Shown here: positions 18,270 through 33,523 of the stretch, piece after piece | Layout: the number at the start of each line of letters is the position of its first letter | How positions within the stretch are numbered: position 1 is the stretch's first letter | Assembly (NCBI GenBank): GCA_019695115.1 | Contig: JAIBAP010000028.1 | Location: 1 to 64,000 of the forward strand | DNA length: 64,000 nucleotides | Reading direction: 5' to 3' | From: Caldilineales bacterium | Lineage (GTDB): Bacteria > Chloroflexota > Anaerolineae > J102 | Translations under genes and position numbers: made by a program | Notes under the pieces: model-generated | The model's input: only the letters and a program-made list of their open reading frames with translations | The model's database searches: none | Told to the model about the DNA's origin: nothing

Positions 18270-18349
18270 TTATTGGTAATTGGTTATTGGAGATTGGAGA
18301 TTGACGCTAATCTCCAATAACTAATCTCCAATCTCCAATTACCAATTAC
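18270..18349. repeat. Hairpin-forming simple-sequence block between acsE and focA
   Basis: The left part (18270-18303) consists of attgg/agattgg words and the right part (18307-18349) of their complements (tctccaat, taccaat), so the block folds into a long imperfect hairpin. It reaches the acsE stop codon and can act as its terminator on the minus strand. The word used here differs from those at other junctions of the cluster. Confidence 0.75.
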
Positions 18350-19269
18350 TGCTCCAAATAGCCATCAGCATAGATAACTCTGTTGAGCAGAATCTGGACG
18401 GTCTTCCAGATGGCCAGTTGGTCGGGGTCGGTGAGGTCGAAGTCGTGGGGCGATGGCTCCTCCATGGCGGCGATGCGGTCGTGTAAGGCGAGATAGCAGC
18501 GCCCGACCGGGGTGCTGCCGTCGCGCGTCTCGATGATGCGGATGACGTTCTTCTGCTCATGGTCGAAGGGGTCGGCGATCATCATCTTCAGGCCCGCGCC
18601 CATCAGCATGGCGGCGTAGGTGCGGTTGATGAGCGGCCGGTTTTCCTTCGGCACGGCATTCGAAACGTTGGAAAGGCCCACCGAGATGGGCGGGGTCGGG
18701 TCCCAGGCCACTTGCAGGGTCTGGATGGCGCCGATCAGCTCCGGGCAGTATTGCTGGCAACCGGAGACAGTCAGCACCAGGGGGTCGATGATCAGGTCGG
18801 AGATGGGGAAGTCGATATCCAAGGCGCGGGGGATGAGCTTCTCGATGGCGATGTTGACGCGCTCATCGGCGCTGACCGGGATGCCCGATTGCCCCATGGT
18901 CAGGGCGATGAGCCGGGCGCCGTACTGCTTCGCCACCAGCGGCACTCGCTCCAGCCGCTCCGGCTCGGCGCTGGTCGAGTTGATGAGCGGTTGGGCTTTG
19001 GTCACGCGCTTCAGCCCGGCCTCGATGCCCAGCAGGTTGGTGCTGTCGAAGCTGAGGGGGACATCGACCACGGCCTCGACCGTTTGCACCATCCAGGGGA
19101 AGACCTCCTCCCAATCGGCCTTGCGCGGCCCCAGGTTGAGGTCGAGGGCCTGGGCGCCGTGCTCGACCTGGCGCACGGCCAGATCCTGGAAGAATTTGGC
19201 ATCGCGCGCCTTCAGCGCCTCTTTGACTTTGTCAGAAATGATGTGGATGTTTTCGCCGATGATGTACAT
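18346..19269 (-). CDS. acsE: Methyltetrahydrofolate:corrinoid/iron-sulfur protein methyltransferase
   Basis: A 307-aa pterin-binding TIM-barrel enzyme. Characteristic parts are the start MYIIGENIHIISDKVKEALK, ALDLNLGPRKADWEEVFPWM, the folate-site sequences PLSFDSTNLLGIEAGL and PLINSTSAEPERL, and ISVGLSNVSNAVPKENRPL. It transfers the methyl group of methyl-THF to the cobalt of the AcsCD corrinoid protein. The start at 19269 (MYIIGENI) was chosen because the extra upstream frame is simple sequence. It lies in the WL cluster between acsV and focA. Confidence 0.92.
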   Translation of the reverse strand: MYIIGENIHIISDKVKEALKARDAKFFQDLAVRQVEHGAQALDLNLGPRKADWEEVFPWMVQTVEAVVDVPLSFDSTNLLGIEAGLKRVTKAQPLINSTSAEPERLERVPLVAKQYGARLIALTMGQSGIPVSADERVNIAIEKLIPRALDIDFPISDLIIDPLVLTVSGCQQYCPELIGAIQTLQVAWDPTPPISVGLSNVSNAVPKENRPLINRTYAAMLMGAGLKMMIADPFDHEQKNVIRIIETRDGSTPVGRCYLALHDRIAAMEEPSPHDFDLTDPDQLAIWKTVQILLNRVIYADGYLEQ

Positions 19270-19282
19270 GGTTTCCTCGTGA

Positions 19283-19355
19283 TTGCGGAATTCGGATTGC
19301 GAATTGCGAAATGAAGGATGAACTGCCCATTTCGCAATCCGCAATCCGCATTTCG
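19283..19355. repeat. Hairpin-forming simple-sequence block upstream of acsE
   Basis: CGGATTGCGAATTGCGAAAT-type words on the left are complementary to ATTTCGCAATCCGCAATCCG at about 19329-19348, separated by a short loop. A second run of the same words lies at 19577-19616. It fills the gap between acsE and the four-helix-bundle fragment. Confidence 0.75.
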
Positions 19356-19579: not shown

Positions 19580-21520
19580 TCATTTCGCAATCCGCAATCC
19601 GAAATCCGAAATCCCAGCAGTTACTGACGGAAAGAGATTTGCATTCGTGTGCGGTAAAAAGAGAGCCGACATGAACGCCTCGTAGAAACTGTTGTCGGCG
19701 GACAACTCGATATAGGTCATGCGGGCGGCAATGTCCTGGATGCGCTTGCGGGCGGCGGGGTCGAGCAAGGCCCGGTAGGCGCCCAGCACGGCGGTGTTGC
19801 CCAGGAAATGGAAGCGATCCCAGGGCAGGTCGGGCAGCAGGCCGATCTGCACCGCCTTTTCGACATTGATGTACTTGCCGAACGAGCCGCCGATCAGCAC
19901 CCGCTCCACCGCCGACAACGGCGCGCCCAGGCGCTCGGCCAGCACCGTGAATCCGGCGTAGATGGCGGCTTTGGCCCGGATCAGGTTGTCGATGTCCACC
20001 CGATTGATGGCGATGTCGCGCCCGTGTGCGGTCTCGGCGGCCCAGGCCACCACATACTCCGGCCCGTGCTCGCCCTCGCGAGTGCGCGGCGTCGGCAGAT
20101 CCAATTTCACATTCCCGGCCTTGTCCACGACGCCGGTCAGGAACATCTCGGCCAGAAGCGAGATGAGGCCAGAGCCGCAGAGACCGCGCGCCTTTTCGTT
20201 GCCGATGACGCGATAGCTTGGCTCGAAGCTGGCGCCGTTGATCCACACTTCCTCGATAGCCCCGCGCGTCGCTCGCATCCCATCCACCACGCCCGCGCCC
20301 TCGAAGGCCGGCCCGGCCGAACAGGCGCAGGCCACCAGCCATTCGTTCGAGCCGAGCACCATCTCGCCGTTGGTGCCCACATCCAGGAACAGCGTCAACT
20401 GCTCGCTTTCGCCCGCGCCTGATGACAGCACCCCGGCCGTGATGTCGGCCCCCACATAGCTGGCCACGCCCGGCAGACAATCCACCGCCGCTTCGGGGTT
20501 CACCGCCAGCCCCGTCTCGGCTGCGGTCAGGGGCGGGACGTCGTTCACGGCGGTGACGAAGGGCGCCAGGCGGATGCTGGCCGCGGGCAGACCCAGGAAG
20601 AGGTGGATCATGGTGCTGTTCCCGGCCACCACCGCCTTGACGATGTCGTTCGCATCCGCCCCCGCCCGCTGGCAGGCGCGCTCGATCAGCCCATTGATCG
20701 TTTCCAGCACCCTCGCCCGCAGCTCCTCGGCCCCGCCGTTCTTGCTGGCATAGATGATGCGCGAGATCACATCCTCCCCACGGGCGATCTGGCCGTTGTA
20801 TTCCGCCGCCTGCGCCCGCACCTGGCCGCTCACCAAATCCACCAGCCAGACGGTGACGGTGGTGGTGCCGATGTCGATGGCCAGCCCCCACAGCGGCGTC
20901 GTTTCAGCCACGTGGCCGGGGCGCAGGTCGATGAGGCGCGCCGGGCAATTGGGCGAGCAATCCCAGTCGGGGATGTCGAGGATGGCCGTGACCTGCCAAT
21001 CGCCCTGGCGCAGCACGCCGCCGATCCGCCGCAACAGCGGCAGCGAGATGGCAACGTCGCTGCGGTCGCTCTGGCGGCGCAGGGCCGTGCGCAGGCGGCT
21101 CCAGTCATCGGCCTGGTCGTCCAGGCTGGGCGGGGTCAAGCTCAACGACAGGCGGTGGATGGTCTGATGGGTGCGGAAGTGGTAGCCAGCCGGGACCTGC
21201 ACCTCGGCGGCCACGCGGTCGACCGTCAGCCGGCGCTCGACCTTCTCCTGCGGCGGGACGAGCACCGTGGCGTCGCCTTCGACCACCGTCTGGCAGGCGA
21301 GGGCGTAGCCCTGGGCGATGTCCTCGGCCGAAAGCCGCAACGAACTCCGCCGCCGCACGCTCCCAGACGCCACCTGCACGGCGCAGCGCCCGCAGCGCCC
21401 CTGCCCGCCGCACGGCTGGTTGATCTCGACCCCCGCCAGCCGCGCCGCCTCGGTCAGCAGGGCGCCGGTGGCGACGCGAGCGGCGTGGGTAGAGTCGAAA
21501 AGGACGGTATGTTGGCTCAT
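19580..21520 (-). CDS. acsV: Reductive activator of the corrinoid protein (2Fe-2S/ASKHA ATPase, AcsV/RACo type)
   Basis: A 646-aa protein. The N-terminal plant-type 2Fe-2S domain is QPCGGQGRCGRCAVQV with the fourth Cys in YALACQTVV. The C-terminal half is the DUF4445/ASKHA ATP-binding fold: PLWGLAIDIGTTTVTVWLVD, VAGNSTMIHLFLGLP, LTLFLDVGTNGEMVLG and ERVLIGGSFGKYINVEKA. It uses ATP to re-reduce accidentally oxidised Co(II) of the corrinoid iron-sulfur protein to Co(I). The start at 21520 overlaps the stop of the HicB-like gene (ATGA), so translation is coupled to it. The last 20 residues run into simple sequence. Confidence 0.9.
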   Translation of the reverse strand: MSQHTVLFDSTHAARVATGALLTEAARLAGVEINQPCGGQGRCGRCAVQVASGSVRRRSSLRLSAEDIAQGYALACQTVVEGDATVLVPPQEKVERRLTVDRVAAEVQVPAGYHFRTHQTIHRLSLSLTPPSLDDQADDWSRLRTALRRQSDRSDVAISLPLLRRIGGVLRQGDWQVTAILDIPDWDCSPNCPARLIDLRPGHVAETTPLWGLAIDIGTTTVTVWLVDLVSGQVRAQAAEYNGQIARGEDVISRIIYASKNGGAEELRARVLETINGLIERACQRAGADANDIVKAVVAGNSTMIHLFLGLPAASIRLAPFVTAVNDVPPLTAAETGLAVNPEAAVDCLPGVASYVGADITAGVLSSGAGESEQLTLFLDVGTNGEMVLGSNEWLVACACSAGPAFEGAGVVDGMRATRGAIEEVWINGASFEPSYRVIGNEKARGLCGSGLISLLAEMFLTGVVDKAGNVKLDLPTPRTREGEHGPEYVVAWAAETAHGRDIAINRVDIDNLIRAKAAIYAGFTVLAERLGAPLSAVERVLIGGSFGKYINVEKAVQIGLLPDLPWDRFHFLGNTAVLGAYRALLDPAARKRIQDIAARMTYIELSADNSFYEAFMSALFLPHTNANLFPSVTAGISDFGLRIAK

Positions 21521-21861
21521 GCCTGGCCTAACTCGGCGGATTTCAGCGATGTTTCGAGCACTTCGCCCACCCAACTGTTCAGGCTCTTCCTGGCCATGCG
21601 GGCGCGCAGGTACAGGTCTCGATGCAGCTCGGGGGAAATGCGCACCACGAATTTGCCGGAGAAAGGTCTCTCCGGCTCCTCGCCGCGCACAGCGCAGAAC
21701 TCAAGATAGTCGTCAACCGAGTCGTGAAACGCCCCGCGCAGTTCCTCGACCGACGTGCCCTGAAAGGTGATCACGTCGCGCAGATTGACCACCTCGCCGT
21801 GGAAAATACCGGCTTCGTCGTCATATTCGACTCTGCCAACATAGCCTTTGTAGGTCATCAT
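21517..21861 (-). CDS. HicB-family antitoxin-like protein, translationally coupled to acsV
   Basis: A 114-aa protein with an N-terminal HicB fold (RVEYDDEAGIFHGEVVNL, TFQGTSVEELRGAFHDSV) and a C-terminal ribbon-helix-helix (GKFVVRISPELHRDLYLRAR). HicB normally neutralises the RNase HicA, but no HicA (about 60-80 aa, dsRBD-like) is found on either side, so this is an orphan. It may now work as a DNA-binding regulator. Its stop overlaps the acsV start by 4 bp. Two Met codons (21861 and 21858) are possible starts. Confidence 0.85.
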   Translation of the reverse strand: MMTYKGYVGRVEYDDEAGIFHGEVVNLRDVITFQGTSVEELRGAFHDSVDDYLEFCAVRGEEPERPFSGKFVVRISPELHRDLYLRARMARKSLNSWVGEVLETSLKSAELGQA

Positions 21862-22377: not shown

Positions 22378-22584
22378 CCACGAATTGCACGAATTCGCGC
22401 GAAAAGCCTACAGCCTGATTTCGTGAAAATTCGTGAAATTCGTGGCAAAAAACCGACCTGTCGTTCAAAGAACTTCCTTTTGCACGAATTTGCACGAAAA
22501 ACCTACAGCCTGATTTCGTGAAAATTCGTGCAATTCGTGAAATTCGTGGCGAAAAACTGACCTGTCGTTCAGAGAACTTCCTTC
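22378..22584. repeat. Duplicated segment and hairpins between acsC and the CoA-binding gene
   Basis: A segment with cctacagcctgatttcgtg, gaaattcgtggc and gacctgtcgttca at about 22408-22481 is repeated at about 22502-22584. The second copy includes the last codons of acsC (gagaacttcctt region), so the first copy is a duplicate of the acsC 3' end plus its downstream sequence. Cacgaatt words at 22378 onward are complementary to aattcgtg words and form hairpins. Nothing else is seen in the 225-bp gap. Confidence 0.8.
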
Positions 22585-23906
22585 ATGAACCGGGGCAGAT
22601 CGACCGCCTCGCGCGGGCCGACGTGGATTTCCCAGCCGGGCAGCTCGGCCTCCAGCTCGCCAGAGAGCACAGCCACATGACCGGGGAGGACGATGCGCTT
22701 GCGGGCGACCTTGTCGGCCAGGCCGAAACGCTTCACATCCTTGGCGATGCGCTCAGCGTCGAACTTGCCCGCGGCCCAGGCCGTCAGCACGCTCATGCCC
22801 TCGGCGTCGGCTACCACCAGCCAGGCCGGCAGCCCCGACCCTTCGACCTCGTTGGCCACGCTGAAATAGGTGATACTGAAGTTGGTCGTGACCAGCACCG
22901 GGTCTTCGGGTTTGGGATTGTTGATCTCGTACACGCCCGGCTGCACCTGGATGGGCTTTTGCGGGTCGGTGTAGATGTTCTGCCGCAGCACAAGCAGCGG
23001 ATAGACGTGTTCGGGCGCAAAGTGGTCGATGACGACGAAGCCGGCGTACTTGGCGATAGCCTGCGCCGCCAGCATAGACTCAGCAGCAGCGTCTGGCGCC
23101 ACCGAGGGAAAAGCAATGATGGGGAAGCCCAACGGCCGGAAGTTCTTCTTCAGCGCCAGCCGGCGGATTTGCGTGTTGAGCGCCAGCGAAGCGCCGAAAT
23201 CCCGCGCGCCGGGGTCGAGCACCATATCTTCGACGCCCTTGCCCTTGATCTTCTCGGTCAAATCGGCCAGCCCGTCCAGGTCGGCGGCGCTGACGATCAG
23301 CGGGACTTTGTTCTGCGCCGCCAGATCGGCCATCTCGGCCCAGTTGTCGGCAGCGGCCATGCCGATCAGCGGCGTTTCCCCGCCCAGCGCGGCCAGCCCG
23401 GCCGCCAATGCCGCCGCCTTGCCCAGCAGGGTGAGCGGGCGCTGGCTGGCCCCGCGCACGGCCTTCACCGCCGCGGCGAAGCTCGCCGGGTCGCCGGCAA
23501 CCGACTCGACGGCGAAGCCATCGATGGTCAGGTCGATGCCGACATAGTTCACGCGGTAGGCGTCGGCTGCCGCGACTTTGGCCGCGATCTCTCCCGCGCT
23601 CAGGTCGTCGCCCACGCGCACGAACAGGCCCGGCCGGTTGTAGAACGTCTTCTCGTGGCGGAAGAGGACGACCTCGTTGCCGGCTTTCACCTGGTTGCCG
23701 TTGGCGCGCAGCGAGATCAGACGCACGGGCGGGGCCGCCGACTCGGAAAGCTGAGCTTTGGCGTCTTCCTTGACATGCGGACAGGCCGCCAATTCGACCT
23801 GCTTCGCCGCCAATTTCATGGCAAAAGCCAAACAGGTGGGAAAACCGCAGTCTTTGCAGTTTGTCTGCGGCAGCAGTTTATAGATTTGAATGCCGGATAA
23901 AGCCAT
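22569..23906 (-). CDS. acsC: Corrinoid/iron-sulfur protein large subunit
   Basis: A 445-aa gamma subunit of the CODH/ACS corrinoid protein. The N-terminal [4Fe-4S] motif is TNCKDCGFPTCLAFAMKLA with the fourth Cys in LAACPHV. A central TIM barrel (YRVNYVGIDLTIDGFAVE, GVEDMVLDPGARDFGASL) follows, and the C-terminal domain (FSITYFSVANEVEGSGLPAW) carries the corrinoid. It accepts the methyl group from AcsE and passes it to the A-cluster of AcsB. AAGGAGATAACCC precedes the start. acsD lies upstream in the same direction, separated by a simple-sequence block of about 130 bp. Confidence 0.92.
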   Translation of the reverse strand: MALSGIQIYKLLPQTNCKDCGFPTCLAFAMKLAAKQVELAACPHVKEDAKAQLSESAAPPVRLISLRANGNQVKAGNEVVLFRHEKTFYNRPGLFVRVGDDLSAGEIAAKVAAADAYRVNYVGIDLTIDGFAVESVAGDPASFAAAVKAVRGASQRPLTLLGKAAALAAGLAALGGETPLIGMAAADNWAEMADLAAQNKVPLIVSAADLDGLADLTEKIKGKGVEDMVLDPGARDFGASLALNTQIRRLALKKNFRPLGFPIIAFPSVAPDAAAESMLAAQAIAKYAGFVVIDHFAPEHVYPLLVLRQNIYTDPQKPIQVQPGVYEINNPKPEDPVLVTTNFSITYFSVANEVEGSGLPAWLVVADAEGMSVLTAWAAGKFDAERIAKDVKRFGLADKVARKRIVLPGHVAVLSGELEAELPGWEIHVGPREAVDLPRFMKEVL

Positions 23907-23925: not shown

Positions 23926-24043
23926 TATTGCGGGTTCCGTGTTCCGTATCCCGTACTACGCAACACGCATCACGCATCACGCAACACGCATCACGCAACA
24001 CGCATCACGCAACACGCATCACGCATCACGCATCACGTTTCAC
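23926..24043. repeat. Simple-sequence block of heptamer words between acsD and acsC
   Basis: Many copies of acgcatc and acgcaac alternate, preceded by ttccgtgttccgt on the left. The words are the same family as at 7910-8073, 31428-31504 and 33558-33632. The block reaches the acsD stop codon. Confidence 0.9.
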
Positions 24044-25002
24044 GCCTTCATCAAACCCTCGATCGCGATCCGCACCCGCCTTATGCTTTCGGGATGGCGG
24101 AGGACGACGATATCGGCGCCGGATTCGAGCAGCGAGACGGCCGTGAGGGTTTCCCAGGCGACCCCGCGCTCGGTCCAGTCGCCCCAGGCCGAGGGCACAC
24201 CGGCGCCGACCTTTGCCTCTTTCGTCTTCCAGGCCTCGAAACCAGGGGTGACGAGCATGGGCAATTGGGTCATGCGGTCGCCTTGCAAGGCGGCCAGCCG
24301 CAGCCGCTCCATCACCGAGTAGCCATACTCGATGCCGTAGCCGACGGCGCCGGTGGTGGGGTCCATGATCACGCGGTCGAGCGGCATGCCCATATCGGTG
24401 ATCAGGATGTTGAGCTGCTTGGCAAGATTGACATCCATGGGCGTGCGGGCGCTGACGAGATGGCCGTTGGCCATGGCCGTGGCCACGATGGTGCGATAGT
24501 TCTTGTCTTCGCAGATGCCCAGCAGCAGCCGCTCGCCCTTGGTCGCTTCGGCCACCGCCACCAACAAGTTGTTGTCGGCGTCGGCCTGGCCCGGCCCGAA
24601 GACGGCAAGGGGCAAGTCGCAAGCCGCAAGTACGGACTTCACCGCCGCCACAGCCGCAGCCGGCGTCGTCGGTTTGCCGTTGGCGTCGTTCAGGCTGAGG
24701 GCAAGGACGATGAGGTCGGCCCCGGTTTCGGCGGCGGCTTTGGCCCAGGCGCCGGGGTCGTTGGCCGCCTCGCCCCAGGCCTGCAGCAGCACCGGCGACC
24801 AGTCATCCGGCCGGCGGTCTTTGATCTCGACGGCGATGAGCGGCCGGTTCGGCGTAGGCGCCTCGAAGTGCATAAAGGGCAGCGTCTTCTCGCCGCCGAC
24901 GATGACGGTGTGGCTGCGCGTGCCGCCCTCGCCGGCCGTGGCGCCGAGGGTGATAGCCTGGACGGAGCCGGGCCAGGCGTCTTTGAGGATTTCGACGGGC
25001 AT
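24040..25002 (-). CDS. acsD: Corrinoid/iron-sulfur protein small subunit (CODH/ACS delta)
   Basis: A 320-aa TIM-barrel delta subunit that pairs with AcsC. It has the family start VEILKDAWPGSVQAITLGAT, ETGADLIVLALSLNDANG and the segment RVIMDPTTGAVGYGIEYGYS. It has no metal site of its own and shapes the corrinoid pocket together with AcsC. The start at 25002 has AGGAG 8 nt upstream. Upstream lies the 48-bp palindrome at 25022-25069 and then the HigBA-like pair, so this gene may need its own promoter. Confidence 0.92.
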   Translation of the reverse strand: MPVEILKDAWPGSVQAITLGATAGEGGTRSHTVIVGGEKTLPFMHFEAPTPNRPLIAVEIKDRRPDDWSPVLLQAWGEAANDPGAWAKAAAETGADLIVLALSLNDANGKPTTPAAAVAAVKSVLAACDLPLAVFGPGQADADNNLLVAVAEATKGERLLLGICEDKNYRTIVATAMANGHLVSARTPMDVNLAKQLNILITDMGMPLDRVIMDPTTGAVGYGIEYGYSVMERLRLAALQGDRMTQLPMLVTPGFEAWKTKEAKVGAGVPSAWGDWTERGVAWETLTAVSLLESGADIVVLRHPESIRRVRIAIEGLMKA

Positions 25003-25021
25003 GGGTTTCTCCTGGTTTCGG

Positions 25022-25069
25022 AAGTGCGACGCACCTCCGAGCAACCGTAGGTTGCCGTGCGTCGCACTT
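25022..25069. repeat. 48-bp palindromic element, copy 1
   Basis: Three internal hairpins lie in 48 bp: GTGCG-A-CGCAC, GCAACC-GTA-GGTTGC and GTGCG-T-CGCAC; the two end arms also pair with each other. The reverse complement occurs at 40869-40916 with one difference. It lies between the HigA-like gene and acsD. There is no coding capacity, which fits a REP/MITE-like element. Confidence 0.9.
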
Positions 25070-25083
25070 GGAAAGTGACTGCT

Positions 25084-25446
25084 CTATTCGCTCAAGCCTG
25101 GTTCCGGCTCGGCAAGGGACAAGGTCATGGGGTTTGGTTCGTAGGTCGTCAGGTTCTCGACCTCGACGGCGATGCGTAAACCGACGCTACGGAGCAAGGA
25201 GTTCAGGCTTGCCAGTTGCGGATTGCCCGTCGCCGATAGCATTTTGTAAAGGCTCTCACGGTTGAGGCGGGTTTCGCGGGCGACTTTGGTCATGCCGCGC
25301 GCCTGGATGATATCGCGTAGAGCTAACATGAAGACTTGTTGGTCGCCATCCTCGATGGCTGCGTTCAGATAGGCTGCCGCCTCCTCAGGGTCTTGCAGAT
25401 CTTCGAGTAAGCCATCGATGTAGGGTCGTGTAGGGGGGTAGCTCAT
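25084..25446 (-). CDS. HigA-type antitoxin (probable addiction module antidote)
   Basis: A 120-aa protein. A flexible N-terminal part is followed by the XRE-like helix-turn-helix FMLALRDIIQARGMTKVARE and TRLNRESLYKMLSATGNPQL, then the dimer-forming end SLLRSVGLRIAVEVENL. This is the 'probable addiction module antidote protein' family. Its ATG overlaps the toxin stop (ATGA, 25443-25446) and is preceded by GGAGG. The pair sits inside the WL cluster between acsB and acsD. Confidence 0.85.
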   Translation of the reverse strand: MSYPPTRPYIDGLLEDLQDPEEAAAYLNAAIEDGDQQVFMLALRDIIQARGMTKVARETRLNRESLYKMLSATGNPQLASLNSLLRSVGLRIAVEVENLTTYEPNPMTLSLAEPEPGLSE

Positions 25447-25781
25447 GATTTCCTCCGTTGGTATTCCGACCAATGTGCCTGCGCCAGCGCGACATCTTGA
25501 GACTGGGTCCGTTTATCGCCGCCGCACAACAAGAGGACGACCGCATTGCCTTGCCGCCCGAAATAGACGCGATAGCCAGGGCCGTAGTCGATGCGAAGTT
25601 CGTTGATACCGCCGCCAACTGAATGGCTATCGCCGAAGTTACCAACGCGCACGCGGTTGATACGAGCTCGCACTCGAATGCGCGCTTCTCGATCGCGCAG
25701 ATGGTCAAGCCAATCCCTAAAGGGGCTATGCCCATCCTCGGTCTGGTACTCGAGGACTTCGATGGTGACGGTGTCAAGCAT
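25443..25781 (-). CDS. HigB/RelE-superfamily toxin (Gp49-like)
   Basis: A 112-aa RelE-fold toxin: EDGHSPFRDWLDHLRDREAR, INRVRVGNFGDSHSVGGGIN, ELRIDYGPGYRVYFGRQG and VVLLLCGGDKRTQSQDV are the family blocks of the phage-derived Gp49-like/HigB group. It would be a ribosome-dependent or free mRNA interferase neutralised by the next gene. The toxin-first order with a 4-bp overlap is typical of higBA. It starts 118 bp upstream (low-coordinate side) of nothing else; the acsB stop lies 119 bp away. Confidence 0.85.
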   Translation of the reverse strand: MLDTVTIEVLEYQTEDGHSPFRDWLDHLRDREARIRVRARINRVRVGNFGDSHSVGGGINELRIDYGPGYRVYFGRQGNAVVLLLCGGDKRTQSQDVALAQAHWSEYQRRKS

Positions 25782-25899
25782 AGTGTAGCATAAAAGCTAC
25801 GGATTATCAACGGAGAGGCAAGGAAATCAGTAGCCGGTAGATCGGGAAATCGGAGCTGCATTCGCCAGGGTTCCCGATCTACCGGCCTTCAGGTCTACA

Positions 25900-28800
25900 T
25901 CAGAAGATCGGGTCCATCATTAGCGCCGGATGGTTGTGCTCCTCCATCCAGGCCAGCAGTTCATCGACGGTGCTGACGGCGCGCTCGTCGGCGATCTTGT
26001 CGATCAGATCGGGGTCGCCTTCGCGGATCGCCGCCGCCTTGAATTCGTCGGCCATCGACTCCTTGAGGAAGCTGCTCATCCACACCACGCGCTTGAAGCC
26101 GCCGTCGGCATAGATGAACTTGGGGCTGATCAGATAGTACTTGCCCACGCCCATCACGCCGGGTGTCTGCAAGCCGCCGCCGGCGATGCCCGCCAGGGTG
26201 CTGAAAGTCATCCCGGCCGGGGTCATGCTGGTGTCCTCGCGGCTGACCACCATCACACCGTTGGCTTCGGGGATGAGCATGACGATGCATTCGAAGCAGC
26301 CACAGTTCTTGACATGGATGCCGTTGGCCAGGTAGCTGTTCACATCCAGCAGGCTGAGGTTGTAGACATGCCGGAAGCGGCCATCATTGGCGACGGGGAC
26401 GGCGCTGGTGACGGTGTCGAGGAAGAAGTCGGTCTCCAGCCAGGGCGACAGCACGGCCTCCGTCTCAGGGGCCTCGGCCACGACGGTTCGCACACTATCG
26501 GCGATCGGGCGGGAGCGGCCAGTCTGGTAGTAGAACAGGGTCGAGCGACTCAAGGCTGACCGGCTTTCGGGCAGGCTGGCCAGGGCTTTGCCGGCGGCAT
26601 AGGGCAGCACTTGCTCTTGGGTCTTGTCCAGACGCCTGGGCAGGGCGGCGATCTCGGCCAGCACCGCCGCCTTCGCCGGATGGCGGGCCGGGATCAGTTC
26701 GGCAAAGCGGCGCAGGTTGCCGCCGTGGATTTCCACGCGGGCGACGGAGCCATCCAATCGCACCTGACTGAGCACGCCCAATCGCTTGAGCAGCAGCTGG
26801 AGATGTCGCGCCGCCCTTACGTCGCTGTGGCTCAGATAGGCTTCGCCCACCGGCCAGCGGTCGTCATAGCGCCGCAGCCGCACCGAGCCGTCGCCATCGA
26901 AGGCGCCAGCCAGGAAGGCGGCGATGTGCGCTTCGGGCAGCCCGACCATCCGAGCCAGGTCCCAGACCCGACCTTCGTTGTCTTCGGCCCGCATCCGCAG
27001 GCCGAAGGCTTCGGCCAGGAGACCGAGGACGAAGTTGTTGCCGTAGAGATCGGTGCTGGGCCGGGTCGCTGTGATCTTCCGGCCGGCGATGACGCCTCCG
27101 CCCCCCTTCTTGCGCTCGCCCAGAGGCGCATCCGCGAACAGGCGATGGTAAATCTCGGTGTACCGTGCCAGCAGGCTGGGGTCGCTGTTGGTGAAATTCA
27201 CCCGGCACCAGTGCGGCCCTTGCCAATCGAGGGAGCCATCCGATGCCAGCAGGCCGAGCAAGTAGAACAGGTCGGGGTCCAGTTCGGGCAGGGCTTGCGA
27301 AGCCTGGCCCGAAGGTGAAGCGACGGCGCCGATCTGCAGTTTGAAGACATCCCACGGCTCGCCCAGCGCCTCGACCAGCGCGCGCAACGTGCGCAGTGGG
27401 AGGGAGGGCAGGCGCGGGTCGGGCAGATCCAGGCCGAGGGAGCGGTAGGCGGCTGTCCGTGAGCCAAAGCGCTCCCGCAATCTGCTTTCGAGACCCCCCA
27501 GCAGAGCAGCATCCACCACCCGGCAGTCAGCGGGGATCAGATCGATGGCAGCCGGTATTTTGCCGGGCAGCCGCAGATGCTTGAGGGCATACACGCGGTC
27601 GCCGGCCTGGATTTCGTCGGCCCGCACCCAGGGCCCGTGCCCGTTCTGGCCCCAACGATCGACGGCCACTTCATGGTTGGGCGTCAGCACCAGTTCCAGA
27701 CCCGATTTGGTGCCGATGCGGATCAGCGTTTCTGGGGCCGGGTTTTTGTGCAGGCCCAGCAGATGGCTATCGACCTGACGCCCGCGCTCGTCCAGCGAAG
27801 CGAGCCGTTGCTGCTCCTCGTTGCCGGCTTCGACGAATTCACCGATGCGCCGAACCGTGCCATCGACCAGCACTTCGGTGTCGGCAGACAGGCAGGCCGT
27901 CATCGGGTTCTCCATGATCGAGTACATCGCCACTTCGTTGACGACGCCGTGCGAGCCGATCTTGGCGTAATCGTTGGTGCCGGTCCAGTAGCCCTTCTTC
28001 GTATCCAACGACCGGAACAGCTTGATTGGCTGGTTGGGGCCGGTGGGATTGATGCTGAACGAGGCTTTGCAGTCCAGCCAGTTGTAGGCGCCGCACAAGC
28101 CCAGGCGTTCGGGGCTGATGACACAGACGTGGTTCGGGGCGAAGGATTGGCAGTTCTTGACCACGACGCCGTTGACGACGTAGTTGTGCGTTTCTTCGAC
28201 GCTGAAGTTGTACACCCGGTCGTAGGTGGCAGCCACCCGTTCGACCGTTTCGACTTTCTGGAAGCGAAGGTCGGCCTCGGCCCAGGCGCGCAGCGTCTGA
28301 TAGTCGGGGTCATCGGCGGGAACGGCTGCGGCCAGATGGTCGAGCACTGCCGCCAGTTTGACCTTGCTGGGGCGGCGCTGGCCATCGCGCCAGGCAACCC
28401 AGGTCTTGTAATCGACCGGGAGTTTCGTCACCGGCACGGCATAGGCATCCAGCAGGCCGGCCAGCCGGGGGCCGCACGAAAGCGGGACGGCGTCGTTGCG
28501 CACCACGTGGCGCGAGTCAGAGCGAATGGTGATCGCTTCCAGGCGGGCGCGCTTGGCCGGATGCTCAGCGCCAACCCTCTCGCGGAAGCGGATCGTATCG
28601 GTGTCGGAACTGGTTGCGACCTGATAACCGCGCCTGATCGGGCTGATGTAGCTGATGATGCCGAGCTTCTTCAGCAGCAGGTGGATGTGTCGCGCTTCCA
28701 GTTCGGTGCGAGTGGTGAAGAATGCCCGCTGGCCAGTGACATGACCATCGCCATCGAAAAGGCCGCGCAGGAAGGCCGCCACCAGGTCGTTCGGCAACGA

Positions 28801-31419
28801 TGAGATCACATAGCCCGTCCATTTCTGCTCCTCGTCTGGCAGGCCGATGCCCAGGCCATTGAGCAGACGCCCATGCAGCGTGTTGCCGGCGACCGACACA
28901 GTCGTTTCCTTGCGGCCAACGACGACCAGATCACCAGAAATGCCGGTAACCGGCGGTACCATGCGCTCGGTGGGGCCGCGCCCGAACCAGTCGGCAACGA
29001 TGGCGGCGAAGCGCCGGCTCAGCGCCGGCTCGGTGTTGGTGAATTGCACGAATACGCCGCTCTGTCCTTGCTCGCCCCGCCAGCGCACACTGCCATCCGA
29101 CGCCACCAGCCCGGCGATATACAACAGGTCGGCGTCCAACTGGGTGCGAGAAAGTACAGTCTCGAACTGGAACTCATGCAGGTCCCCCTTGAGATCATCC
29201 CAGTTCTGGCCCAAAGCCGCCACGACCCGCTTGAGTTCGCCCAGGGTGAGGCGCTGGTGCGAGACCTCCTGGTGCGGGTACAGTGCACTGTACAGGCGCC
29301 GATAGGGGATGTCCAACTGGGCTGCGGCGTCGGTCAGATTGCCATACTTCGCCAACGCCCACTCGCTCAGCCGGGCATAGAAGGCTTCATCTGCGACCTT
29401 GTAATCGTCTGGCAGATAATCCACCACGAAGGGCCTGGGTCGCTCCTCGGTGTCCATCTCGGGCAGGGCGTCCACCAGGTAGTCGCCGGGATTGAGCTTG
29501 CCGGCCGGCGCCCAGATCAGTCCTTCGGGACGATCGACGAGGACTTTGTGATTGGCGGTCAAGGTCAGGGCATTGCCGTTGCGCAGCCCGATGCGCACCA
29601 GCACTTCGGGAGCAGGGTTGATGAATAGCTCGCCCATCGAACGCCGGGCAAGATGGTTTTGGTCGAAGGTCATCACCGGGCGTAGCCCGTTCTCGATGGC
29701 GTTCTCGACCAGCTTATCCACGGCCAGGAAGGAGCCATCCGCCAGCACGACATCCTGATCGGGCGGGACGCAGAGCGTGCACGAATAAAACTCCTCCACC
29801 TTGTCATCGGTCAGGTCGGCCAGGCGCTTGTTGCGATAGTCGTAAGCCTCGCGCGCCGTATCGAGCCAGGCGTGGAACTGGCCTAGATCGGTGTAGATCG
29901 TCACCTGCACCTTGTCGACGATGGCGCCGAAATCGGTCTTGAAGCGGGCGTGCAGGATTTTGCCGAAGTGCTCCAGGTCGAAGCCTTTGTCGGCGGCGGC
30001 GGTGGAGATGCGGATCCAGGCGATATCGCGCTGGCCGATATGCTGGATGCCGGAGGCGCCGTTGATGAAGTAGTGGATCTGGCGCTCCAGCACCGGCTCG
30101 AAGTCCTTCTGCATCTGCCGGCCGGCCACATCCACCACGATGCCCATGTCCATGTGACCCTGGGCCGGGAGATCGGCGAACTTCGGCCCCACCACCTCGA
30201 TCTTGCCATCCACCACCTCATCCATCCCCGCCATGCGCAGATACTCGAACGCCCGGCTGTACTTGCCGCCGAACTCGACCCGCATATCGGCCTTGCGCAC
30301 GACCTCGCCCTCGAACGCGGAACCGTAGGGCACGGGCACGGGCACATTGGCCACTTTGACCTTGACCCCCCGCACCTCGATGCACTTCTCCACCAGCCGC
30401 TCCGCCCGCTCCAGATCGTCTTTGCCGTCGATCTCGTTCCACGGCCAACTGACGACGTGCTCGTAGCGAGTGACGCCGGTGGGCAGGATTTCGGGGATGA
30501 CGGTGTCGGCGATGACCGGGAAGCCGAAGTTGATCGCCCCGGCGGCGGCCGCATATTTCAGATCATCCACCTCGCCCAGGGCCAGGACGAAGGCGAAGAC
30601 GCGCTCGCGGTTATAGAGCAGGATATCGCGCGCCTGCCCGGCCTTGAGACCGCCGAAGGTGAGGGCCGAGCGCGTGGCAAAGCCGAGGGCGTAGATGGCG
30701 CTGAGGGTGTCGGTGCCGAAGGGCACGGTGTACGTGTCGTAGCCAAGCTCCACGCCTTCTTCCATCAGCTGGTGGATGATGCTGCGGCCGTTGACATTGC
30801 CCGACAGGAACGTGAGGATGTTGCGCCGCTGAAGCTCGCGCACCAGCTTGACTGCTACCTCGTTCGATTTGGCGCAGCCGACGATGGCGGCGAAGCCCGG
30901 CATACGGCCATCCACCAGCTGGATGCCCCACGAGCGCAGTTGGATGTCATCGATGGGGCCGTTGAGGTGGCCGTCGGCATCAACGCTGTACCCAGCGTCG
31001 CCGTTGCCGCCGTTGCCCATGTCAGGGCTGGTGAACGACGTCCCACCCGCGAGATGAAAGCCCGGCATCGGCTCTGGCTGCAACTTGTAGACGAAACGCA
31101 CGGCCTCGATGGCCTCGGCTGCCAGCAGCGTGGCCATGCCGCTATCCAGCGTCTCGCCCAGGTAGGGCGTCCAATGGTGGGGTGCAGGCACGGGGTGGAG
31201 CAGCTCGCGGGCGTGTTTCAGCACCGGCGGCAGGTCGCCCAACTTCTGCACGGCCATGCCGGTCATGCCAAAGATGAGCGGGAGATGGTAAGCGGTATTG
31301 GGAAAAGCCACCGGCGTCTCGGCGCCTTTCTCGCGCAAAGCTTTGTGAAGCATGACTTCGGCTTCGTTGACGAGGGCGTTGGCCCCGCGGATGGCGCGGG
31401 TGGCAATGTATCGGGACAT
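25900..31419 (-). CDS. acsB: Acetyl-CoA synthase catalytic subunit with two in-frame inteins
   Basis: An 1839-aa precursor. After removal of inteins at residues 550-1089 and 1176-1705, the extein is 769 aa (Moorella AcsB is 729). The A-cluster cysteines then read CTLC (C547, C550), NHVC (C559), GLC (C569) and CGC (C636, C638). Their spacing equals Moorella 506, 509, 518, 528, 595 and 597. The enzyme condenses CO, the methyl of the corrinoid protein, and CoA to acetyl-CoA. N- and C-terminal parts are complete (ends NHPALMMDPIF). The start at 31419 (MSRYIATRAIRG) has GGAGG 6 nt upstream; the longer frame is simple sequence. cooS lies just upstream. Both inteins interrupt the active site itself. 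Confidence 0.95.
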   Translation of the reverse strand: MSRYIATRAIRGANALVNEAEVMLHKALREKGAETPVAFPNTAYHLPLIFGMTGMAVQKLGDLPPVLKHARELLHPVPAPHHWTPYLGETLDSGMATLLAAEAIEAVRFVYKLQPEPMPGFHLAGGTSFTSPDMGNGGNGDAGYSVDADGHLNGPIDDIQLRSWGIQLVDGRMPGFAAIVGCAKSNEVAVKLVRELQRRNILTFLSGNVNGRSIIHQLMEEGVELGYDTYTVPFGTDTLSAIYALGFATRSALTFGGLKAGQARDILLYNRERVFAFVLALGEVDDLKYAAAAGAINFGFPVIADTVIPEILPTGVTRYEHVVSWPWNEIDGKDDLERAERLVEKCIEVRGVKVKVANVPVPVPYGSAFEGEVVRKADMRVEFGGKYSRAFEYLRMAGMDEVVDGKIEVVGPKFADLPAQGHMDMGIVVDVAGRQMQKDFEPVLERQIHYFINGASGIQHIGQRDIAWIRISTAAADKGFDLEHFGKILHARFKTDFGAIVDKVQVTIYTDLGQFHAWLDTAREAYDYRNKRLADLTDDKVEEFYSCTLCVPPDQDVVLADGSFLAVDKLVENAIENGLRPVMTFDQNHLARRSMGELFINPAPEVLVRIGLRNGNALTLTANHKVLVDRPEGLIWAPAGKLNPGDYLVDALPEMDTEERPRPFVVDYLPDDYKVADEAFYARLSEWALAKYGNLTDAAAQLDIPYRRLYSALYPHQEVSHQRLTLGELKRVVAALGQNWDDLKGDLHEFQFETVLSRTQLDADLLYIAGLVASDGSVRWRGEQGQSGVFVQFTNTEPALSRRFAAIVADWFGRGPTERMVPPVTGISGDLVVVGRKETTVSVAGNTLHGRLLNGLGIGLPDEEQKWTGYVISSLPNDLVAAFLRGLFDGDGHVTGQRAFFTTRTELEARHIHLLLKKLGIISYISPIRRGYQVATSSDTDTIRFRERVGAEHPAKRARLEAITIRSDSRHVVRNDAVPLSCGPRLAGLLDAYAVPVTKLPVDYKTWVAWRDGQRRPSKVKLAAVLDHLAAAVPADDPDYQTLRAWAEADLRFQKVETVERVAATYDRVYNFSVEETHNYVVNGVVVKNCQSFAPNHVCVISPERLGLCGAYNWLDCKASFSINPTGPNQPIKLFRSLDTKKGYWTGTNDYAKIGSHGVVNEVAMYSIMENPMTACLSADTEVLVDGTVRRIGEFVEAGNEEQQRLASLDERGRQVDSHLLGLHKNPAPETLIRIGTKSGLELVLTPNHEVAVDRWGQNGHGPWVRADEIQAGDRVYALKHLRLPGKIPAAIDLIPADCRVVDAALLGGLESRLRERFGSRTAAYRSLGLDLPDPRLPSLPLRTLRALVEALGEPWDVFKLQIGAVASPSGQASQALPELDPDLFYLLGLLASDGSLDWQGPHWCRVNFTNSDPSLLARYTEIYHRLFADAPLGERKKGGGGVIAGRKITATRPSTDLYGNNFVLGLLAEAFGLRMRAEDNEGRVWDLARMVGLPEAHIAAFLAGAFDGDGSVRLRRYDDRWPVGEAYLSHSDVRAARHLQLLLKRLGVLSQVRLDGSVARVEIHGGNLRRFAELIPARHPAKAAVLAEIAALPRRLDKTQEQVLPYAAGKALASLPESRSALSRSTLFYYQTGRSRPIADSVRTVVAEAPETEAVLSPWLETDFFLDTVTSAVPVANDGRFRHVYNLSLLDVNSYLANGIHVKNCGCFECIVMLIPEANGVMVVSREDTSMTPAGMTFSTLAGIAGGGLQTPGVMGVGKYYLISPKFIYADGGFKRVVWMSSFLKESMADEFKAAAIREGDPDLIDKIADERAVSTVDELLAWMEEHNHPALMMDPIF
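26305..27894 (-). mobile_element. AcsB intein 2 (530 aa, LAGLIDADG type)
   Basis: It starts CLSADTEVLVDGTVRRIGEF after extein ...ENPMTA. Block B is LVLTPNHEVAVD. The endonuclease helices are LFYLLGLLASDGSL and AAFLAGAFDGDGSV. It ends YNLSLLDVNSYLANGIHVKN before the +1 Cys of CGCF. It is clearly homologous to intein 1 through the endonuclease and splicing parts. The penultimate residue is again Lys. Insertion is directly before the Cys equal to Moorella Cys595, which bridges both nickel ions of the A-cluster. Confidence 0.93.
28153..29772 (-). mobile_element. AcsB intein 1 (540 aa, LAGLIDADG type)
   Basis: The intein starts with Cys (CVPPDQDVVLADG), directly after extein ...SCTL. Block B is LTLTANHKVLVD. 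The two LAGLIDADG helices are LLYIAGLVASDGSV and AAFLRGLFDGDGHV. The end is YNFSVEETHNYVVNGVVVKN before the +1 Cys of the extein (CQSF). All splicing blocks are present, so it should splice. The penultimate residue is Lys instead of the usual His. Insertion is immediately before the Cys equal to Moorella Cys509, a ligand of the proximal nickel. The central endonuclease appears intact, so homing is possible. Confidence 0.93.
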
Positions 31420-31427
31420 AGGTGCCT

Positions 31428-31504
31428 CCGTGTTGCGTAGTGCGTATTGCGTATCCTTTCGCCTTTCCGGGCTTACGGAATACGCAACACGCAACACGCA
31501 CTAC
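31428..31504. repeat. Hairpin-forming simple-sequence block between cooS and acsB
   Basis: Left words gtgttgcgta/gtattgcgta (31429-31456) are complementary to right words tacgcaacac/gcaacacgca (31475-31503), giving an imperfect long hairpin about 3 bp from the cooS stop codon. It could reduce read-through or stabilise the cooS mRNA end. Confidence 0.75.
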
Positions 31505-31507
31505 ATA

Positions 31508-33523
31508 TCAATTCGGTGAAAAACCGTACATAGCGCTTCGTTTTTCGCTCAACGGCAGGGTTTCCAGCGCCATCATGCGGGCATCGCCAGAGCGACCGAA
31601 ACGGTTGGGTTCGTAGATAGGCAGGCCCAGGGCGGCGCGCTTCTTGTCGATGTGCTCGAGGGTGCGGCGGATCATCTCGTCCGCATCCTTGACGAACTCC
31701 ATCTTGCCGCCGTAGAGGTGCTCCCAGCCTTCGCCGATGTAGTTGAGGACGAGGTCGCTGTCCTCGACCCGATCGGGCATGCCGCCCACCGGCGACGAGC
31801 CGCCGAAGATGACATAGGCGCCGGAGGCCACGCAGTAGGTGCCGATGGCCAGGGCCTTCTCGCTCATCCATTCCGGGGCCAGGCCAACGGCGGGGACCAT
31901 GTCGATGTCATCGCCCAGGCCGCCTTCCTCCACGATCTGCGTCAGCACGGTCAGGATGCGGGTGTTGTCCACGCACGAGCCCATGTGCAGCACCGGCGGG
32001 ATGCCCACCGTCTCGCAAACCTCGCGCAGCCCTGGCCCCACCTTGTCCAGCCCGGCCTCGCCCAACATCAGCCCCAGCTTGGCGCTGGCGATGGCGCCGC
32101 AGCCGGTCTCGACCACCAGCACATCCTCCATCAGCAACTTCTGCGTCACGTAGGTGTGCAGCCAGTCCTGCTTGCTGCGCGGGTTGTTGCAGCCGACGAT
32201 GGCCGCCACCCCGCGGATGCGGCCCGACATGATGGCATCGTTGAGCGGGCGGAACGAGCCACGATAGCTGCCGCCGAGCATGTAATTGATGTATTCGTGC
32301 GAGAAACCGGGCACCAGGCTTTCCTTCACTTGGGGAATGTGTACCTTGCCCCGGTTCTTGAAATTATCGATAGCCGTCTTGAGGATATTTTTTGCCACCG
32401 TCAAGGCGTGTTTTTCATCGAATTCGATGTGCGTAGCGCCCTTGATCCGCACCTTCGGCGAGGTCGTGATCACTTTGGTGTGGAAATTCTCGGCCAATTG
32501 CACCAGCGCCTGCATCACGCACTGCACATCCACCACCATCGCCTCGACGGCGCCGGTGAGGATCGACAATTCCTGGTGCAGGAAGTTGCCGGCGGCGGGG
32601 ATGCCCTGGCGGCTGAGGATTTCGTTGGCCGTGCAGCAGATGCCAGCCAGGTTGACGCCCGTCGCCCCGGCGGCTTTGGCGTAGGCGATGATCTCCGGGT
32701 CCTGCGACGCCGCCACGATCATCTGGCTGAGGGTGGGTTCGTGGCCGTGGACGACAACATTGACCATGTCCTCTTTCAGCACACCCAGATTGGCCTGGCC
32801 CAGCACCGGGGCCGGGGTGCCGAAGAGGATGTCGGAGATGTCAGTGGCGATGAGGCTGCCGCCCCAACCGTCGGCCAGGGCCGTGCGCACGGCGTGGCTG
32901 AGAATGTGTTCGGGGTCCTGGTCATCGCCGATGTGGGTGCGGTGCAGGGCCTCCACCACCTCGCGGTCGATGCCCCGCGGGACGACGCCATTCTCGGCCC
33001 ACACTTTTTGCCGTTTCTCCGGCGCCCGTTTGGTCAGAACCACCTGGCCCCTTTGCTGCCCGAATTGGGCGATGTACAAATCCGCCAGGTCGTTGGCGAT
33101 CTCTTTGGGATGCCGCCCCTCGATGGCGATGCCGTAATACTGCGCCACCGTCCGCAACTTGGCCACATCGCGGATCACATAGCCCTCGGTCTGGTCGTTG
33201 GCCACGGCCTTGAGCGTGAAGGCCATGTCGCGACCATGATCAGAGTGGGCGGCGGAGCCGGCGGCGATGGCCCGGATCAGGTTGCGGGCCTGGATGGTGT
33301 CGATGGTGGCCCCACAGACTCCGGTCTGGCCGTCTTTGGTCAGGCGGCACGGCCCCATGCCGCAAAGTTTGCAGCACATGCCGGCGCCGCCGATGTTGCA
33401 GGGCGCCATATCGCTGGCCCGAGTGAAAGCGGTGCCGATGCCCAACTCCTCGGCCCGGATCAGCATCATCTGCGCCGCCGGATCGGCGCTATAGTCTTCC
33501 GGTCGATAGTCTTTTTTCGCCAT
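31508..33523 (-). CDS. cooS: Carbon monoxide dehydrogenase catalytic subunit
   Basis: A 671-aa Ni-CODH (AcsA/CooS). The N-terminal cluster-binding region (D and B clusters) is MAPCNIGGAGMCCKLCGMGP. C-cluster ligands lie in GICCTANEIL, VVDVQCVMQ, AAIVGCNNPRSKQ, VETGCGAIA and LHMGSCVDNTRI. It reduces CO2 to CO for acetyl-CoA synthesis or oxidises CO. TGAGGAGATGACACC precedes the start. It lies between the HMA-like gene and acsB, as in bacterial WL operons. The maturation ATPase cooC is not here but at 48488. Confidence 0.95.
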   Translation of the reverse strand: MAKKDYRPEDYSADPAAQMMLIRAEELGIGTAFTRASDMAPCNIGGAGMCCKLCGMGPCRLTKDGQTGVCGATIDTIQARNLIRAIAAGSAAHSDHGRDMAFTLKAVANDQTEGYVIRDVAKLRTVAQYYGIAIEGRHPKEIANDLADLYIAQFGQQRGQVVLTKRAPEKRQKVWAENGVVPRGIDREVVEALHRTHIGDDQDPEHILSHAVRTALADGWGGSLIATDISDILFGTPAPVLGQANLGVLKEDMVNVVVHGHEPTLSQMIVAASQDPEIIAYAKAAGATGVNLAGICCTANEILSRQGIPAAGNFLHQELSILTGAVEAMVVDVQCVMQALVQLAENFHTKVITTSPKVRIKGATHIEFDEKHALTVAKNILKTAIDNFKNRGKVHIPQVKESLVPGFSHEYINYMLGGSYRGSFRPLNDAIMSGRIRGVAAIVGCNNPRSKQDWLHTYVTQKLLMEDVLVVETGCGAIASAKLGLMLGEAGLDKVGPGLREVCETVGIPPVLHMGSCVDNTRILTVLTQIVEEGGLGDDIDMVPAVGLAPEWMSEKALAIGTYCVASGAYVIFGGSSPVGGMPDRVEDSDLVLNYIGEGWEHLYGGKMEFVKDADEMIRRTLEHIDKKRAALGLPIYEPNRFGRSGDARMMALETLPLSEKRSAMYGFSPN

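Follow-up and report, generated by a model that had tools for sequence, protein, structure and literature searches.

The question raised by this locus is how an acetyl-CoA synthase (ACS) gene that is interrupted by two inteins, each at the codon of a metal-binding cysteine, can give rise to an active enzyme. The window analysed, a 64,000-nucleotide stretch of contig JAIBAP010000028.1 from a Caldilineales bacterium, contains on its minus strand a frame (25900-31497) that is open across 1865 codons, and translation from the ATG at 31419 gives a product of 1839 aa. This intein-bearing product scores 898 bits against the AcsB equivalog model NF040764, for which the cut-off is 800. The original prediction of an 1839-aa acsB with inteins of 540 and 530 aa was right in its coordinates, lengths and sites, as judged by reading of the frame and alignment with Moorella ACS; the region it delimited, 26305-29772, comprises intein a, intein b and the 86-aa middle extein. 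Without the inteins, the exteins amount to 549 + 86 + 134 = 769 aa (Table 1). The answer favoured here, and considered very probable, is that these are mobile inteins that have spread within acsB and that must splice before ACS builds its nickel-iron-sulfur centre.

Table 1. Features of the intein-bearing acsB gene and of the neighbouring pathway genes; positions are those of the window
Feature	Position	Strand	Family model
acsB, acetyl-CoA synthase precursor, 1839 aa, two inteins	25900..31419	-	NF040764, PF19436
N-extein, 549 aa, C-terminal YSC(506)-T-L	29773..31419	-	
Cys506 codon, [4Fe-4S] ligand, position -3 relative to intein a	29779..29781	-	
Intein a, 540 aa, CVPPDQ...VVVKN, Hint and LAGLIDADG endonuclease domain	28153..29772	-	
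Cys509 codon, +1 of intein a, residue binds proximal Ni and the [4Fe-4S] cluster	28150..28152	-	
Middle extein, 86 aa, equivalent to Moorella 509-594	27895..28152	-	
Intein b, 530 aa, CLSADT...IHVKN, Hint and LAGLIDADG endonuclease domain	26305..27894	-	
Cys595 codon, +1 of intein b, Ni ligand	26302..26304	-	
C-extein, 134 aa, starts Cys595-Gly596-Cys597	25903..26304	-	
CO dehydrogenase (Prismane/CODH family), upstream partner of acsB	31508..33523	-	
CdhD-family corrinoid protein subunit, AcsD-like	24040..25044	-	
CdhD family and FeS domain, AcsC-like large corrinoid subunit	22569..23906	-	
RACo-like activator of corrinoid protein	19580..21574	-	
Pterin-binding methyltransferase, AcsE-like	18346..19344	-	

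Alignment of the exteins to the solved structures of Moorella ACS (1mjg, 1oao) by phmmer places query positions 550/1090 at Moorella Cys509 and runs query residues 1090-1176 on 509-595 without gaps. Once the inteins are removed, Cys506, Cys509, Cys518, Cys528, Cys595, Gly596 and Cys597 are all in register, and it is from this register that Cys509 is identified as the +1 residue of intein a and Cys595 as that of intein b. The same alignment bears out the claims that the inteins precede the equivalents of these two cysteines, that their excision restores the spacing of the A-cluster and that the middle extein is 86 aa long. The ligands of the proximal nickel are Cys509, Cys595 and Cys597 (PMC10299331), in agreement with the further claim that both insertion-site cysteines coordinate this metal; Cys509 bridges the proximal nickel to the [4Fe-4S] cluster and Cys595-Gly596-Cys597 constitutes the distal nickel site (PMC10299331; PMC8910529). 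In the unspliced chain, intein a separates Cys506 from Cys509 and intein b separates Cys509 from Cys595 and Cys597, so that the A-cluster cannot form; from the sequence, the ACS precursor must lose both inteins before an active site is possible.

Within the inserts, Pfam and NCBIfam identified matches to Intein_splicing, intein_Nterm, intein_Cterm, Hint and LAGLIDADG_3. AlphaFold models of inteins a and b, built together with related inteins, have a mean pLDDT of 88.6 and 91.2 respectively, and comparison of these models by VIA-align indicates similarity to the whole solved inteins TliVMA, PI-PkoII and PhoVMA (Z 24.5-28.1), to the Mtu RecA splicing domain (rmsd of 1.4-1.8 A across 137-139 residues) and, in the middle part of both models, to I-DmoI-type endonucleases; for the intein a model, solved inteins were also matched by Foldseek. 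Cys1, the T-x-x-H of block B (T71 and H74 in b) and the terminal Asn (Asn540 in a, Asn530 in b) are invariant across all 24 a and b inteins, and the +1 residue is Cys at both sites. Equally invariant in the 24 are a Lys at the penultimate position, where His is usual, and an Asn in block F, where Asp is usual. Inteins without the penultimate His are able to splice, and the pattern of conservation suggests that the two replacements are oddities common to a and b with no sign of decay; with the usual His and Asp absent, splicing may be slow or conditional. The LAGLIDADG motifs, ASDGS/DGDGH in a and ASDGS/DGDGS in b, have both acidic residues present, while in related b inteins the endonuclease motifs are either gone (five mini-inteins) or partly gone (L057 and L115). 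On the sequence and the predicted models, both inserts belong to the Hint inteins, with their splice termini intact and LAGLIDADG endonuclease motifs present. Chance is excluded by the matches to intein and LAGLIDADG models, by the full-length fold matches and by the occupation of both positions in many independent genomes.

The breadth of this occupation was established by two surveys. A PF19436 search of 396 Anaerolineae genomes found ACS in 150, the loci of which were then read, identifying inteins at site b in 13 genomes and at site a in 3, 14 genomes together. A search of the genome_contigs collection (84,980 species) with a DNA pattern encoding ENPMT[A/S]C and then a codon with T in second position, a pattern suited to bacterial-type ACS, recovered 20 ACS genes carrying an intein at site b, every one from Chloroflexota records. 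With both surveys merged, the search of AcsB families that the original prediction had suggested finds one or other site occupied in 23 Anaerolineae species (b in 22, a in 6 and both in 5). The carriers of both are the window genome, CHL4, Zod_Metabat.487, Zod_Metabat.248 and Gw_SlDig_bin_20, with b covered only at its start in Zod 487, Zod 248 and G265, and a covered only at its end in Gw_SlDig_bin_20. Five of the b inteins are mini-inteins without an endonuclease, of 174, 186, 219, 222 and 222 aa. No ACS intein was found in 34 ACS genomes from Chloroflexota classes other than Anaerolineae, in 21 ACS genomes of a Clostridia-class sample or in 255 ACS genomes of a Desulfobacterota sample, the last judged by per-genome match scores; an intein at site a or b would break the PF19436 match to ACS in two. 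Several candidates were rejected as intein genes: ORFs of 1180-1370 aa in which the ACS match is unbroken are AcsB-AcsD fusions, a break at the Cys595 codon in G059 is a contig end without an intein, and in Desulfobacterota, ACS matches that are split or weak come from contig ends, frameshifts or short CdhC-type genes.

Within Anaerolineae, the presence of the inteins does not follow the descent of their hosts. On a host tree of 71 rows, built from the spliced host proteins by a quick method, at least 11 changes are needed for b and at least 4 for a. Two congeners of the source bacterium have codon-exact empty sites at both positions, and b is present in L120 and absent, with a codon-exact empty site, from relatives with 91-93% identical flanking DNA. 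The Spearman correlation between intein and host identity is -0.20 (171 pairs, mini-inteins included). Furthermore, intein b of the window and the L055 intein are sisters, with the L055 host placed elsewhere on the host tree, and intein a of L097 is sister to that of L052, despite these hosts being 75% identical and the L097 host being 83-86% identical to other carriers. This mismatch between intein and host, together with the patchy presence, is the pattern predicted for homing and loss. Inteins a and b are themselves ~30% identical across their full length, and intein a of the window matches full-length b inteins with BLAST E values of 1e-41 to 1e-59, as against 1e-16 at best for other inteins. 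The a and b inteins also group apart from other inteins with a support of 93, in a quick tree that has long branches among those other inteins. By these measures, no other intein found in Anaerolineae is as close to a or b as the two are to one another, and the simplest account of their kinship would be that one acsB site was seeded from the other. Neither intein looks very recent here, because both have a G+C close to the host gene's. No relatives of b were found in viral contigs or plasmids, and none of a or b in phages. The mini-inteins of L054 (3897-4562) and L056 (6027-6692) share 92% aa identity with a dS of 0.29, compared with 82% for their hosts and a dS of 0.67 beside the intein, and are thus more alike than their hosts, as if moved or converted without an endonuclease of their own.

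The dN/dS ratio, taken only where synonymous sites are unsaturated, is 0.10-0.29 for the inteins, 0.05-0.27 for the adjoining host regions and 0.13 for one pair of mini-inteins without an endonuclease; inteins and exteins are under purifying selection. The genome has one ACS locus, situated in a Wood-Ljungdahl operon. The conservation suggests that splicing must work if the pathway does. Between acsB and acsD (25084-25783, minus strand) lie a RelE/HigB-like small ORF and then an HI1420-type addiction-module antidote (PF21716). In many other Anaerolineae (L040-L052, L057, L060; for example L045 and L057), AcsB and an AcsD-like protein are fused in frame, with the fused AcsD-like domain 61-74% identical to the stand-alone gene of the window, and in L057 a single chain of 2380 aa consists of ACS, both inteins and AcsD.

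It is suggested that the precursor is made as a single 1839-aa chain in which, at each site, Cys1 of the intein would form a thioester at the upstream junction, which would then be attacked by the cysteine at +1, Cys509 or Cys595. Cyclisation of the terminal Asn and ligation of the exteins would then yield the 769-aa ACS, which would only afterwards acquire its [4Fe-4S] cluster and Ni-Ni centre. The inteins would be maintained by homing into highly conserved acsB codons, where imprecise intein loss would destroy the enzyme; a and b derive from a common ancestor, most simply via a jump between the two acsB sites. Conservation points to splicing of both inteins in vivo, and both are likewise predicted to have homing activity. 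Ordinary class 1 chemistry would explain the observations, the special feature being a +1 cysteine that doubles as a metal ligand. Given that the penultimate His and the block F Asp are absent, it could be argued that a and b are dead inserts that no longer splice and that acsB is a pseudogene. However, this is very improbable: the frame is open for 1839 codons, the catalytic residues are invariant, dN/dS is low in exteins and inteins alike, and the product is recognised as ACS above the NCBI equivalog cut-off despite its inserts. It is barely credible that the arrangement is an artefact of assembly in which acsB was joined to intein sequence from a different gene or organism. The assembly is a draft of 135 contigs, but both inserts are in frame at either end, the same two codons are occupied in many independent assemblies, and a and b are ACS-specific with a base composition like that of the host gene.

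Compatible with the mobile-intein account, and an addition to it rather than a replacement, is the possibility that splicing is conditional, the inteins acting as switches that would release active ACS only once the cell is reduced or nickel is present. The original prediction had suggested that splicing might be sensitive to redox state or metal, and the -3 cysteine, which it did not mention, makes this specific for site a; the recurrence of the inteins in relatives and the kinship of a and b were likewise not part of that prediction. Cys-Thr-Leu precedes intein a, placing Cys506 at -3, in all five species for which the upstream junction was read, while intein b is preceded by Met-Thr-Ala, with no Cys at -3. 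A disulfide between Cys-3 and Cys1 stops splicing of the P. abyssi MoaA intein until it is reduced, and one between Cys1 and Cys+1 stops splicing of the Pab PolII intein (PMC3922620; PMC10663303). A Cys506(-3)-Cys1 disulfide might act at site a in the manner of the former and, possibly, a Cys1-Cys+1 disulfide at both sites in the manner of the latter. The Cys at -3 in the five site-a junctions and at +1 of both sites would accord with such control, as would the blocking of splicing by both disulfide types in known inteins, the identity of ACS as a metal enzyme of an anaerobe, and the conserved replacement of the usual splicing residues. Nevertheless, Cys506 and the +1 cysteines serve the A-cluster, so any intein inserted here acquires this geometry at no cost; the residues before site b are Met-Thr-Ala; and acsB is intein-free in most relatives, the same genus included. 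Conditional splicing as a whole is therefore considered rather unlikely, a redox brake being plausible by analogy at site a and possible at site b. A stricter form, in which an inert precursor would splice at Cys509 and Cys595 only under reducing, metal-replete conditions, is distinctly unlikely; here splicing at Cys509 would follow release of the Cys506-Cys1 disulfide, and the free thiolates of Cys509 and Cys595 in the spliced protein would bind iron-sulfur and nickel.

Insertion at catalytic residues is a known habit of inteins. The presence of two in one metal site of ACS had been put forward as undescribed, and no report of inteins in AcsB, CdhC or CODH/ACS was found in the literature searched, outside which most subscription papers lie. 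NCBIfam returned intein-containing models for RecA, GyrA, RtcB and Tes and none for ACS, and the inteins reported in PMC6390638 are in GyrB and DnaE. ACS inteins are best described as not found in earlier work, which falls short of never described. The hosts of inteins now include the central nickel enzyme of the Wood-Ljungdahl pathway, an ancient route of carbon fixation, with both insertion sites on ligands of a single Ni-Fe-S centre, and one class offers a natural series of empty, full, mini, single and double states that makes testable both the spread of inteins between sites of one gene and the redox or metal response of splicing at metal-ligand cysteines. Surveys based on ACS may misread intein genes, which range from 960 to 2400 aa.

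Among known systems, the P. abyssi MoaA intein resembles intein a in having an oxygen-labile host enzyme and an extein Cys at position -3 relative to Cys1, but its host is a different enzyme and AcsB has two inteins on one metal centre; disulfide control, shown for the MoaA intein, is for intein a suggested by analogy only. PI-PkoII, TliVMA and PI-PfuI share with a and b a whole-length fold in which Hint is split by a LAGLIDADG endonuclease, yet are 17-23% identical to them and reside in other hosts, namely a DNA polymerase, a V-ATPase and an RNR. Profile searches place the inteins of Anaerolineae MutS, DnaE and DnaB nearest among the non-ACS inteins of the class, at a best E of about 1e-22, host names taken from the intein-bearing sequences; unlike a and b with each other, these match over partial length and belong to a group apart. 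The window genome itself has further inteins with Cys at +1 in two UDP-sugar-dehydrogenase-type genes (L002/L009, contig C37; L007/L008, contig C22), where the +1 residue (GGSC-FPKD, GGHC-IPLDP) is taken to be the catalytic cysteine, and a DUF362-like protein with an intein (L003, contig C26; …TVKC-VHPD … VLHN-THIF). Its SufB gene (L004, L006; contig C104, about 2.7-4.6 kb) has two inteins, with Cys1 and Ser+1 at both, such that double inteins occur in this genome in the Fe-S assembly factor SufB and the Fe-S/Ni enzyme AcsB. SufB inteins, known from M. tuberculosis, are thus like those of AcsB in having a host of iron-sulfur metabolism and, here, two sites per gene, whereas SufB is an assembly factor with Ser at +1 and AcsB is a catalytic nickel enzyme in which the +1 residue is a metal-ligand cysteine.
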